The notes beneath the pieces are model-generated. The model worked only from the letters and a program-made list of their open reading frames with translations. It made no database searches and was not told the DNA's origin. 64,000 bases of DNA from contig JQKK01000011.1 in NCBI GenBank assembly GCA_000746015.1, positions 62,001 to 126,000 of the forward strand, written 5' to 3'. The stretch is from Lachnospiraceae bacterium MA2020. GTDB taxonomy: Bacteria > Bacillota > Clostridia > Lachnospirales > Lachnospiraceae. Below, one piece after another: positions 28,600 to 31,822 of this stretch; the first letter of the stretch is position 1, and every line of letters begins with the position of its first letter. The translations under genes were made by a program, and so were the position numbers.

Positions 28600-29874
28600 A
28601 TGATTAAGAAAGAGATGATCGCCATGCTTCTAGCTGGAGGGCAGGGAAGCAGACTTGGCGTTCTGACGACCCGAATGGCAAAACCGGCCGTATCGTTTGG
28701 AGGGAAGTATAGAATAATCGACTTTCCGCTGAGCAACTGTATCAATTCAGGTGTTGATACAGTAGGCGTATTGACGCAGTACCAGCCACTTAAGCTTAAT
28801 TCTCACATCGGAATAGGTATACCGTGGGATCTCGACAGAAATGTCGGAGGTGTATCGGTACTTCCACCATATGAGAAGAGCACAGACAGTGAGTGGTATA
28901 CTGGCACGGCTAATGCTATCTTACAGAACTTAGAGTACATGGAGAGCTACAATCCTGATTATGTACTCATTCTTTCTGGAGACCACATTTACAAAATGGA
29001 TTATGAGGTTATGCTCGATTTCCACAAGGCGAACGGAGCTGCAGTTACTATTGCTGCAATGCCGGTGCCTATGGAGGAGGCAAGCCGCTTTGGTATCGTT
29101 ATCACAGACGAAAACCGAAGGATTCAGGAATTTGAAGAGAAGCCTGCGAAGCCAAGGAGCAACCTTGCTTCAATGGGTATTTACATCTTCTCCTGGAAGG
29201 TGCTTAAAGAAGCGCTGCTTGCAAACTCTGATCAGGAAGGACTTGACTTTGGTAAGCATGTAATTCCGTATCTTCACGAAAGAGGCGAGAAGATGTATGC
29301 CTTTGAGTTTAACGGATACTGGAAGGATGTTGGAACACTCAATTCATATTGGGAAGCCAACATGGAGCTTATCGATATCATTCCGGAGTTTAATCTTTAC
29401 GAAGAATATTGGAGAATCTTTACCAAGAGTGAGAATCTTCCGCCACAGTACATCGCAGACAGCTCTGCTATCGAGAAGAGTATCATCGGAGAGGGCTCTG
29501 AAGTTTATGGCGAGGTCAAAAGCTCAGTACTTGGCTGCGGCGTGACCATAGGCAAGGGCAGCGTTATCAGAGACTCTATAATTATGAATAATGCCGTCAT
29601 CGGAAATGATTGTGTAATAGACAAGGCGATCATTGCTGAGGGCGCTCGTATAGGAAATAAAGTTACACTTGGCGCCGGTGAAGAGGTTGAAAATGACACA
29701 AAGCCTCAGATCTACAATCATGGTATAGTTACCATCGGTGAGAATTCTGACATTCCATCAGGTCTTACCGTAGGCAAGAATACGGTTCTTGCAGGGGAAT
29801 TTGAGCTCGGAGAGTTTGAGGGCGCAACAGTTCCTTCCGGAAAATCTTTGATCAAGGCAGGTGGCAGACCATGA
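28600..29874 (+). CDS. glgC: Glucose-1-phosphate adenylyltransferase, catalytic subunit
   Basis: This 424-residue enzyme makes ADP-glucose from glucose 1-phosphate and ATP, the committed step of glycogen synthesis. It has the nucleotide-binding [49 protein letters not shown] (metal Asp), [10 protein letters not shown] (sugar-phosphate Lys) and a C-terminal left-handed beta-helix with hexapeptide repeats from about residue 290. I start at ATG 28600 because GAGGTGATG lies just upstream; the frame extends 19 codons further without a ribosome site. Its stop overlaps glgD by four bases. Confidence 0.95.
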
Positions 29875-30989
29875 GGGCTATAGGAATAATACTGGCAGGT
29901 GGTAACAATCACCGAATGAAAGAACTTTCCAGAAAGCGTGCTATTGCGGCTATGCCGATCGCCGGCAGCTATAGAAGCATCGACTTTGCACTGAGCAACA
30001 TGACAAACTCACATATTCAGAAGGTTGCTGTTTTCACTCAGTACAATGCAAGAAGCTTAAATCAGCACTTAAGTTCATCAAAATGGTGGGACTTTGGACG
30101 TAAGCAGGGCGGACTTTATGTATTTACACCGTCCATTACTCAGGACAATAACCTTTGGTACCGCGGTACCGCAGATGCTATATATCAGAATCTTTCATAT
30201 CTTAAGGACAGTCATGAGCCTTATGTAATCATCACATCAGGTGACGGCGTATATAAGCTCGACTACAATAAAGTCCTTGAGTATCACATCAAGAAAAAGG
30301 CTGATATCACAGTTGTCTGCAAGGAGATGGGACAGGAAGAAAACGTTGATCGTTTCGGAGTTGTCCGCATGAATGAGGAGTCAAGGATCATAGACTTTGA
30401 AGAAAAGCCTATCCTTGCAAAGACAAACATTGTATCCTGCGGAATCTACATTATCCGCCGTCGACAGCTCATCGAGCTTATCGAGAAGTGCGCAGAAGAA
30501 GACAGACATGACTTTGTAAGCGACATCATCATAAGATACAGAAGCCAAAAGAGGATTTACGGCTACAAGATGACTGACTACTGGAGAAATGTGGCAACCG
30601 TTGATGATTATTTCAAGACAAATATGGATTTCCTCAAACCGGAAGTGAGAAATTACTTCTTTAAGGAATATCCGGATGTGTATTCAAAGGTTGATGATAT
30701 GCCGCCGGCTAAGTATAACGTTGGCGCAAATCTTTCAAACAGCCTTGTATCTTCGGGAAGTATCATAAACGGTACAGTTCAGGACTCAGTATTATTTAAG
30801 AAAGTATTCGTAGGCAACAATTGCTTTATCAAGAATTCAATCATCTTAAATGATGTATATATTGGGGATAATACACATATTGAGAATTGTATTGTTGAAA
30901 GCCACGGTACTATCAGAGCAAATTCCTACTACAAAGGTGAGGATGGCATCCAGATTGTAGTGGAAAAAAATGATAGATACGTGTTGTGA
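29871..30989 (+). CDS. glgD: Glycogen biosynthesis protein GlgD
   Basis: This 372-residue homologue of GlgC acts as its regulatory partner in Firmicutes. It keeps the fold ([52 protein letters not shown], beta-helix at the C terminus). The pyrophosphorylase GxGxRL loop is replaced by [10 protein letters not shown], and the metal-site SGDHIY reads [11 protein letters not shown]. In studied Bacillus/Geobacillus pairs GlgD alone has little activity but raises that of GlgC. The gene ends inside the left arm of the foldable element at 30983-31159. Confidence 0.95.
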
Positions 30990-31159
30990 TACTAGTGCCG
31001 AAAGTCAAGCCGCGGTTGTGCTTGCACATATAGCGGATTGACCTTATGGCACGAACAGTCATGAGGAAGAAGCAATTTGCGAAGCAAATTAGCGGAATCC
31101 GAATGACTGTAGGATTGCGGGAGCTGCGCAGCAGCGAAGCAATCCGTAAGTATCACAAC
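30983..31159 (+). other. 177-bp branched foldable element at the end of glgD
   Basis: An 11-bp perfect outer stem (30983-30993 with 31149-31159) encloses three further hairpins. The first is 30995-30999/31048-31052 with inner 31004-31008/31038-31042, 31010-31013/31033-31036 and 31017-31021/31024-31028. The second is 31055-31062/31103-31110 with inner AATTTGC-GAA-GCAAATT at 31074-31090. The third is 31112-31118/31139-31145 with inner GCTGCGCAGC at 31123-31132. The element could be a structured RNA (3' UTR or small RNA), or a mobile palindromic element that landed at the glgD stop. No known family is recognised. Confidence 0.6.
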
Positions 31160-31175
31160 AACATAAATAAGGTCA

Positions 31176-31193
31176 AAAGAGCTCACGCTCTTT
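31176..31193 (+). other. Short hairpin before spoVG
   Basis: AAAGAGC (31176-31182) pairs with GCTCTTT (31187-31193) around TCAC. The T-run is only three bases, so it is at best a weak terminator for the foldable element or glgCD. Confidence 0.4.
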
Positions 31194-31242
31194 AGATAAA
31201 CTAATATAACACTATAACACTAATCCATAGGGGGATGGGGAC

Positions 31243-31557
31243 ATGATGGAAATTACTGACGTAAGAGTAAGAAGACTTACAAACACAGGCAAGATGAGAG
31301 CACTTGTATCGGTTACACTTGATGATGTTTTTGTTGTACACGATATCAAGATCATCGAGGGAGAGAAGGGACTCTTTATTGCAATGCCAAGCCGCAAGGC
31401 ATCTGACGGAGTGTTTAGGGATATTGCACATCCTATCAACACTGAGACAAGGACAAAGATGCAGAATCTTATCCTTGAGCGTTATCAGCAGTCACTTACC
31501 GAGCCGATCGAGGAGGTAACTGCTACTGAGGCTGCTCCGGAAGCCGCATTGGTATAA
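31243..31557 (+). CDS. spoVG: SpoVG family regulator
   Basis: This 104-residue protein is a SpoVG homologue, a small nucleic-acid-binding regulator found in sporulating and non-sporulating Firmicutes. In them it affects septation, capsule and virulence genes. The family block is complete: [60 protein letters not shown] and [15 protein letters not shown]. Two ATG codons (31243, 31246) follow a GGGATGGGG ribosome site. It stands alone, with a terminator 18 bases after its stop. Confidence 0.95.
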
Positions 31558-31574
31558 TCTGTTATCATGTAATG

Positions 31575-31612
31575 AAACCCCCGCAGACTTTAATGGTCTG
31601 TGGGGGTTTACT
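31575..31612 (+). terminator. spoVG terminator
   Basis: A 14-bp stem with one wobble (31575-31588 with 31596-31609) holding five G-C pairs next to AAA/TTT; the trailing T-run is short. Confidence 0.75.
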
Positions 31613-31650
31613 GTTGCACAAAATCATTATATAGTAAACGAAAAAGGGAG

Positions 31651-31750
31651 AGCCGCCCGGATGACCGGACGGCTGGAAGTATGAAAAAAGGGATTTATTT
31701 ATCAAAAATTGAATGGAGGCTGTGTGCACCTTCATAAGATTTTTGATAAA
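31651..31750 (+). other. Structured leader region of proC
   Basis: Two hairpins lie here. The first pairs AGCCGCCCGG (31651-31660) with CCGGACGGCT (31665-31674), one wobble. The second has a perfect 12-bp outer stem (31698-31709 with 31739-31750) and an inner 7-bp stem (31713-31719 with 31729-31735). An 18-codon ORF (31681-31737, MKKGIYLSKIEWRLCAPS) overlaps the second hairpin. Neither ends in a T-run. They look like leader regulation of proC, but no known class was recognised. Confidence 0.45.
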
Positions 31751-31822
31751 CTAATCATAGCAACCTGTTGTGAAGAAACAAAGTAGTGATTGTGGCTAAT
31801 ATGTGAAAAGGAGCTTAATTTT

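Follow-up and report, generated by a model that had tools for sequence, protein, structure and literature searches.

The window, a 64,000-nucleotide stretch of the Lachnospiraceae bacterium MA2020 genome, carried at the end of glgD a folded element that was not a new RNA family but a copy of a known motif, Clostridiales-1, which we reinterpret as MITE-like, with a form that is locked to a stop codon and fitted to its host gene. In the explanation that we favour, with a confidence somewhat better than even, the window copy is a tail-less derivative of a MITE that now provides a putative structure of the glgD-spoVG mRNA, with a closing helix that probably arose by template switching. The family would be a small non-autonomous mobile element of the Lachnospiraceae that has been catalogued as an RNA. 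A full-length member consists of a structured core and a short 3' tail, and its insertion duplicates 7 bp of the form ATNNNAT. Tail-less copies, that of the window included, are probably immobile, and those located at stop codons are presumably co-transcribed with the gene as a part of its mRNA. Such a copy is expected to fold into a closed four-way structure, the basal helix of which often takes in the stop codon and most likely comes from a template switch during replication. In the window this would yield a 3'-end or intercistronic structure of glgD and spoVG that putatively protects or processes the glgD message. At the sequence level, the analysis established the identity of the family, its dispersal, its ends, the 7-bp duplications, the stop-codon position of the tail-less copies and, at two sites, closing arms derived from the host gene.

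The element between glgD and spoVG

The order of features was glgD (29871-30989), the element and spoVG (31243-31557), all on the + strand. Both gene names given in the preliminary description held, since GlgD matched TIGR02092 with 300.3 bits (cut-off 236.6) and SpoVG matched PF04026 as well as NF009749, the latter with 139.2 bits (cut-off 108). The core of the element, in its tail-less form, occupied positions 30987-31155 (+). As had been described, an uninterrupted helix of 11 bp closed it around three hairpins; the 5' arm was located at 30983-30993 and the 3' arm, its perfect complement, at 31149-31159. The glgD gene ended inside the element. Namely, the 5' arm began with four bases of glgD codons followed by the TGA stop codon (30987-30989), which had correctly been placed in the left arm, and the four outermost closing pairs (GTTG/CAAC) involved the glgD codons. 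Hairpin 1 (30995-31052) had the tip loop GCTTGC, and hairpin 2 (31055-31110) had conserved letters in its internal loop and, in the window copy, the tip GCGAAGC. Hairpin 3 (31112-31145), with the triloop GCA in the window copy, was the part that survived in decayed copies at other glgD genes (G744, L156 and L160). The remaining gap before spoVG spanned 31160-31242.

The MFE fold of 30983-31159 (+) was the branched 177-nt structure claimed earlier, with 64 pairs and -83.6 kcal/mol. Among 200 dinucleotide shuffles (-46.2 +/- 4.0) none was as stable, corresponding to a z of -9.44. The minus strand was nearly equal to the + strand (-78.4 kcal/mol, z -9.32), and folding with DNA parameters gave -48.0 for the + strand and -43.6 for the minus strand. 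The fold is thus real on both strands and far above chance. The statement that nearly every base was paired was too strong, as 128 of the 177 bases (72%) were paired in the MFE fold. Unconserved stems and an energy like that of shuffled sequence had been named as the outcome that would speak against the element, and neither was found.

When the entire window was searched against Rfam, a single match exceeded the threshold, RF01699 (Clostridiales-1), at 30987-31155. With a score of 125.1 bits (gathering score 48 bits), this was a full-length match (model positions 1-166 of 166) with an identical fold. It corrected the initial impression that no known family applied and ruled out an unknown RNA family. 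RF01699 is a motif of unknown function that Rfam classes as type 'Gene; sRNA'. It was first described by Weinberg et al. in 2010 (PMC2864571), where it was graded as probably an RNA and probably not cis-regulatory, with occurrence in Clostridiales and the human gut. In its accessible part, this description does not include a mobile repeat, a tail, a target duplication or a stop-codon helix (PMC2864571). Our literature search found no later studies of Clostridiales-1 and, in a literature covered mostly without subscription papers and supplements, no description of the family as mobile.

The Rfam type would imply an independent trans-acting small RNA with its own promoter, and the conserved loops and internal-loop letters would suit such a molecule. 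We consider this improbable. On the + strand, neither a promoter-like site at the element or immediately upstream of it nor, in 30700-31800, a terminator-like site was present; moreover, about half of the tail-less copies had their 5' end at the stop codon of the preceding gene, and the family was dispersed with target duplications. The lack of a + strand terminator-like site in that region, that is, a GC-rich hairpin with a run of T, also ruled out the element as an intrinsic terminator. The sole terminator-like site there was on the minus strand (31674-31651).

Family spread, tails and target duplications

In its own genome the motif had 23 matches at E<=10, nine of them above the cut-off; at this limit 4 of the 14 control genomes also matched, none above the cut-off. 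Above the cut-off, the motif was present in 32 of the 61 relatives, in 130 of the 299 family genomes (where at most nine candidates per genome were scored) and in 13 of the 391 class genomes; these sets overlap, and each counts the own genome. None of the 14 controls of these three surveys had such a match. In the sister genome G014 the 20 fetched copies were all at different places, and 19 of them were within one base of the commonest sequence over 157 nt (the outlier was L070); recent spread is the natural reading of this near-identity. The family, with its copies in G014, thus showed the dispersed near-identical copies by which bacterial MITEs are recognised.

Two readings had been left open at the outset, a structured RNA and a small palindromic mobile element, and each found partial support, the first in the known Rfam motif and the second in a dispersed, MITE-like family with target duplications. 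The homology search proposed to separate them, by multiple copies with the same 11-bp ends on the one hand and single copies with compensatory changes on the other, found many copies and compensatory changes. The 11-bp ends were not common to the family, as the closing stems differed among copies. Since copies were many, ends differed and pairing was kept, this test did not discriminate between the readings.

For the analysis of ends, 182 copies were oriented by hand, and removal of five near-duplicates recognised by their flanks left 177; two further copies without 20 nt of flank were left out of the closing-stem swap, which used 175. The set excluded 14 sub-threshold matches from the own genome (L010-L023), short or contig-end loci (L048-L052), loci of irregular length (L229, L232, L238, L251 and L277) and a tandem copy (L274). 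Because the copy lists were ordered best first, high-scoring mobile families are over-represented in it.

In many copies the Rfam core was followed by a tail of about 16-34 nt (in the printed examples), the terminus of which repeated the left end of the element, imperfectly and in inverted orientation. A tailed element started with GATnnnAGGGTCAAAAG and finished with CTTTTGACCCnnnATC, forming imperfect terminal inverted repeats of about 18 bp. Tailed copies made up 85 of the 177 and tail-less copies 92, the latter including two in G000 (L001 and L006) that seem to have a decayed tail missed by the pattern. Direct repeats of 5-8 bp flanked 59 of the 85 tailed copies, measured at the tail end, versus 5 of the 92 tail-less copies, measured at the core end. 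In a fixed frame, an exact 7-bp repeat was present in 40 of the 85 tailed copies (shuffled pairings gave a mean of 1.7 and a maximum of 6), and 51 of 85 had the repeat with at most one mismatch (shuffled mean 9.8). The consensus of the 40 exact repeats was ATNNNAT. Terminal inverted repeats together with a target duplication of fixed length, as used to define MITEs, were therefore present in the family, and the tailed form is, judged from its ends, built like a MITE that is mobilised by a cut-and-join transposase. Derivatives of about 38 bp, hardly more than the two ends, also appeared by eye to be bounded by such repeats (L291 and L118).

In the window copy (L005), neither a right terminal repeat nor a target duplication was found in 31160-31242, which counts against the explanation that we favour; without tail or repeat, this copy was called a tail-less derivative.

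The target duplication also bears on whether the element belongs to the REP or IS200/IS605 sort, with its hairpins recognised as single-stranded DNA. A 7-bp target duplication is not expected of such mechanisms, and it was exact in 40 of 85 tailed copies. This reading would fit the almost purely Watson-Crick pairing of two helices (97.8% and 98.1%) and the GNA triloops of 81 of 152 copies, and we regard it as very improbable.

No convincing autonomous partner was found among the end pairs of G014, nor in the 20 stretches read around ends in eight genomes. An insertion sequence of G014 (L306) was rejected as partner because its ends were unrelated. Matches to PF01609 and PF00872 (six genomes) and to PF00665 (eight genomes), checked for ends and inverted repeats, gave no matching transposase, and a pattern scan of viral contigs yielded 12 stretches with one match each, among which the pair check gave no partner. 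A plasmid search with a G014 copy (L032) as the query had no match. Four unannotated phage records of human faecal origin (MT839604.1, MT835932.1, MT837213.1 and MT839563.1) had partial matches covering 25-56% of the element, reflecting either carriage by phages or mislabelled bacterial contigs.

Several other arrangements were seen. In the 4.1-Mb genome G014 a 17-base end pattern (at most one mismatch) occurred 99 times in forward and 104 times in reverse orientation, with no occurrence of the reversed-pattern control, and some of the ends were solitary or in mini-pairs of 38 bp. Two loci (L258 and L045) contained two near-identical elements head to tail; in L258 the core of the second followed the 3' arm of the first without a gap. 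Additionally, L257, L265 and L253 had, 3' of the core, repeats of hairpin 3 alone plus a closing stem of its own, which look as if hairpin 3 could be copied by itself.

Stop codons and closing helices

Among the tail-less copies, 48 of 92 started -15 to +6 nt from a co-oriented upstream stop codon, compared with 7 in the mirror orientation (p 1e-8); for tailed copies the numbers were 17 of 85 and 9 (p 0.17). The p-values are only a guide as the copies are not independent, and gene ends were set by the boundaries of the Rfam model and an open-frame rule (at least 55 codons) rather than by annotation. When copies were grouped by increasing divergence, i.e. the distance to the nearest other copy, which is a crude proxy for age that depends on sampling, the fraction at sense stops was 14/66, 21/53, 6/24 and 24/32 (mirror 5, 6, 4 and 1). 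The rise reflected how many copies in each group were tail-less: among tail-less copies, sense stops were occupied by 19 of the 37 young ones and 29 of the 53 old ones. It therefore gives no separate indication of long-term retention, and the notion that stop-locked copies have been retained for long was unsupported. In the copies compared, the stop-codon position goes with tail-lessness and not with age.

The main competing explanation is that of a passive remnant, that is, a MITE preferring AT-rich sites behind genes, with other insertions purged, tail-less copies simply broken and no role at glgD. ATNNNAT targets would suit TAA-rich gene ends, and of the 82 young tailed copies, 16 had already taken sense-stop positions (mirror 8). 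On the other hand, the marked one-sidedness of the tail-less copies (48 versus 7) is not what it predicts, and neither are site-specific closing stems that extend into codons: stems no shorter than 9 bp that included five or more pairs in coding sequence occurred in 11 of the 48 stop-locked copies versus 40 of 2256 swapped combinations. We judge a passive remnant to be unlikely, though still a serious candidate.

Further comparisons with swapped 3' ends favoured a helix fitted to its site. The mean longest closing stem was 9.3 bp in stop-locked copies versus 5.8 bp when swapped, 9.1 versus 5.9 in the other tail-less copies and 8.0 versus 6.4 in tailed copies. At least one base of the stop codon was in the stem in 35 of the 48 stop-locked copies, with a swapped fraction of 0.40. 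A cruder swap test, of the mean number of coding-sequence pairs in the best stem, gave no excess (2.02 actual versus 2.15 swapped).

Filled and empty sites were compared at the junction of two genes that we take to be purF and purB, where 30 loci were surveyed and 24 were readable. In G533 the end of purF including the stop codon, TTTGAGCAATA, paired with TATTGCTCAAA, and the corresponding sequence in element-free relatives was GAATTTGAGCAATAA (G763) and GAATTTGAGCGATAA (G760). The comparison of filled and empty sites implies that the 5' arm is host sequence and that the 3' arm is complementary to the host. An orthologous copy in G267 had a shorter stem, G770 had an element at that same stop codon (Rfam score 88.6 bits), and G758 had a half-decayed copy (12.9 bits, E 0.02 with our own model). 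By eye, 18 of the 24 readable junctions were without an element, and L402, L404 and L418 were also without a model match. L417 had a different palindrome there with no model match, and L407 was cut by the contig end.

The glgD gene was present in 44 of 48 genomes of the genus, with 41 readable junctions, 38 of which showed no element by eye. In five of the six nearest orthologues of GlgD (88-91%) the gene ended in TAA, with no element and no model match. The sixth (G744) had a remnant at glgD (16.8 bits, E 0.0016), in the stem of which TAAAAACG paired with CGTTTTTA; the element-less G743 read TAAAAACGGGG. A copy above the cut-off was present at the glgD stop codon of G021 (120.9 bits), where the next gene differed. 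Among 80 named glgD loci, a model match at the end of glgD was found in three: L148 was intact and was part of the model's own input, and L156 and L160 were decayed with hairpin 3 kept. A fourth match, in L161, was away from the glgD end. The decayed copies at glgD (G744, L156 and L160) and at purF (G758), as well as the five nearest relatives with no element at glgD, are what a passive remnant would be expected to leave.

With regard to the fitted helix that we prefer, the match of the closing helix to its site, with a 3' arm complementing the end of the host gene, was directly visible in the sequences at purF and at the glgD remnant, and it was supported statistically at other sites. In the window itself the 3' arm complemented four bases of glgD codons, for which chance could suffice. 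A broader proposal, which we hold tentatively and think rather doubtful, is that a mobile element becomes a custom-fitted part of an mRNA: after insertion at a gene end, reverse-complement copying of the last codons and the stop would add a closing helix, with the stop codon locked at the foot of a conserved four-way junction, and fitted copies would act as regulators at gene ends across the Lachnospiraceae.

The pairing itself was conserved. In 45 chosen copies, 27 of the 28 consensus pairs had double changes with pairing kept, which template switching could also yield. In 152 unique copies, Watson-Crick pairs accounted for 97.8% of the hairpin 1 tip and 98.1% of the outer hairpin 3 helix, and wobbles for no more than 1%; their rarity suggests that the stems are renewed by template switching. 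Strand-symmetric DNA processes alone should produce GU and AC in equal numbers. In helices fixed beforehand as well aligned, GU exceeded AC by 72 to 46 (p 0.02), and without the outer helix of hairpin 2, a four-helix subset picked afterwards, the ratio was 29 to 8 (p 0.0008). The counts were 261 to 90 in the lower part of hairpin 1, which aligned poorly, 46 to 30 in the tip of hairpin 2 and 22 to 32 in the closing stem. The excess of GU makes some selection on the + strand likely in the hairpins, the closing stem not included, and it is weak evidence for RNA. The loop types do not decide between RNA and DNA. The hairpin 1 loop was GCTTGC in 116 of the 152 unique copies, and 81 of them had GNA triloops; both loop types are stable in RNA or DNA, and GNA triloops are very stable in DNA.

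Related systems and neighbouring elements

The closest published analogue that we encountered, as likened by its published description rather than by sequence, is the YPAL/RU-2 element of Yersinia (PMC2229807). It is similarly a dispersed, intergenic and folded element of about 168 bp with target duplications, and it might affect the stability of upstream transcripts (PMC2229807). According to the accessible part of that source, however, YPAL has internal inverted repeats and duplications of 3 to 26 bp, in contrast to the 7-bp ATNNNAT duplications and terminal repeats of Clostridiales-1. ERIC/IRU/RU-1, Correia/NEMIS and RUP are likewise MITE-like, about 100-200 bp long and folded as transcripts, and cleavage of NEMIS RNA by RNase III has been proposed (PMC2229807). 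As described there (PMC2229807), these elements end with 5'-TA-3', whereas Clostridiales-1 has the ends GAT...ATC and a closing helix that is partly host gene sequence. Template switching is known to create RNA hairpins (Monttinen and Loytynoja 2022, PMC8794818). In that process, as is proposed for the fitted copies, a single event gives a reverse-complement arm and can restore pairing; the accessible part of the account mentions neither mobile elements nor stop codons (PMC8794818).

A motif that has been listed since 2010 as an RNA without a known function gains a likely MITE-like origin and the stop codon as its putative site of action. For RNA discovery the family also suggests caution, as strong covariation in multi-copy motifs can come from mobile copies and template switching besides selection on RNA. 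The natural series at glgD and purF, with no element, fitted and decayed copies, would provide a view of a transposon turning into an mRNA element.

Other conserved or repeated sequences were observed around glgD and spoVG. A strongly conserved leader of about 90 nt, CAAGCTACGTGGCTTGATG...GGTATCATATGATAAGGAGG, was located upstream of spoVG in L125, L136, L138-L140, L142, L143, L145 and L146; scans of L125 and L139 gave no Rfam match above threshold. The same was true of L384, one of three loci (with L130 and L382) that had a second conserved spoVG leader, ATCAGCCGGACAT...CATAGTCTGGACGGGTA. In L366 (G741) the glgD stop codon was directly followed by a different intergenic repeat, GTCATTCTGAGCGAAGCGAAGAATC together with short direct repeats, which had no Rfam match above threshold. 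Finally, a different palindromic element, also with no Rfam match above threshold, was found soon after the glgD stop codon in two species (L141:3634-3779 and L144:2624-2764), and its arms of 26-29 nt were 90-96% complementary and 88-89 nt apart.
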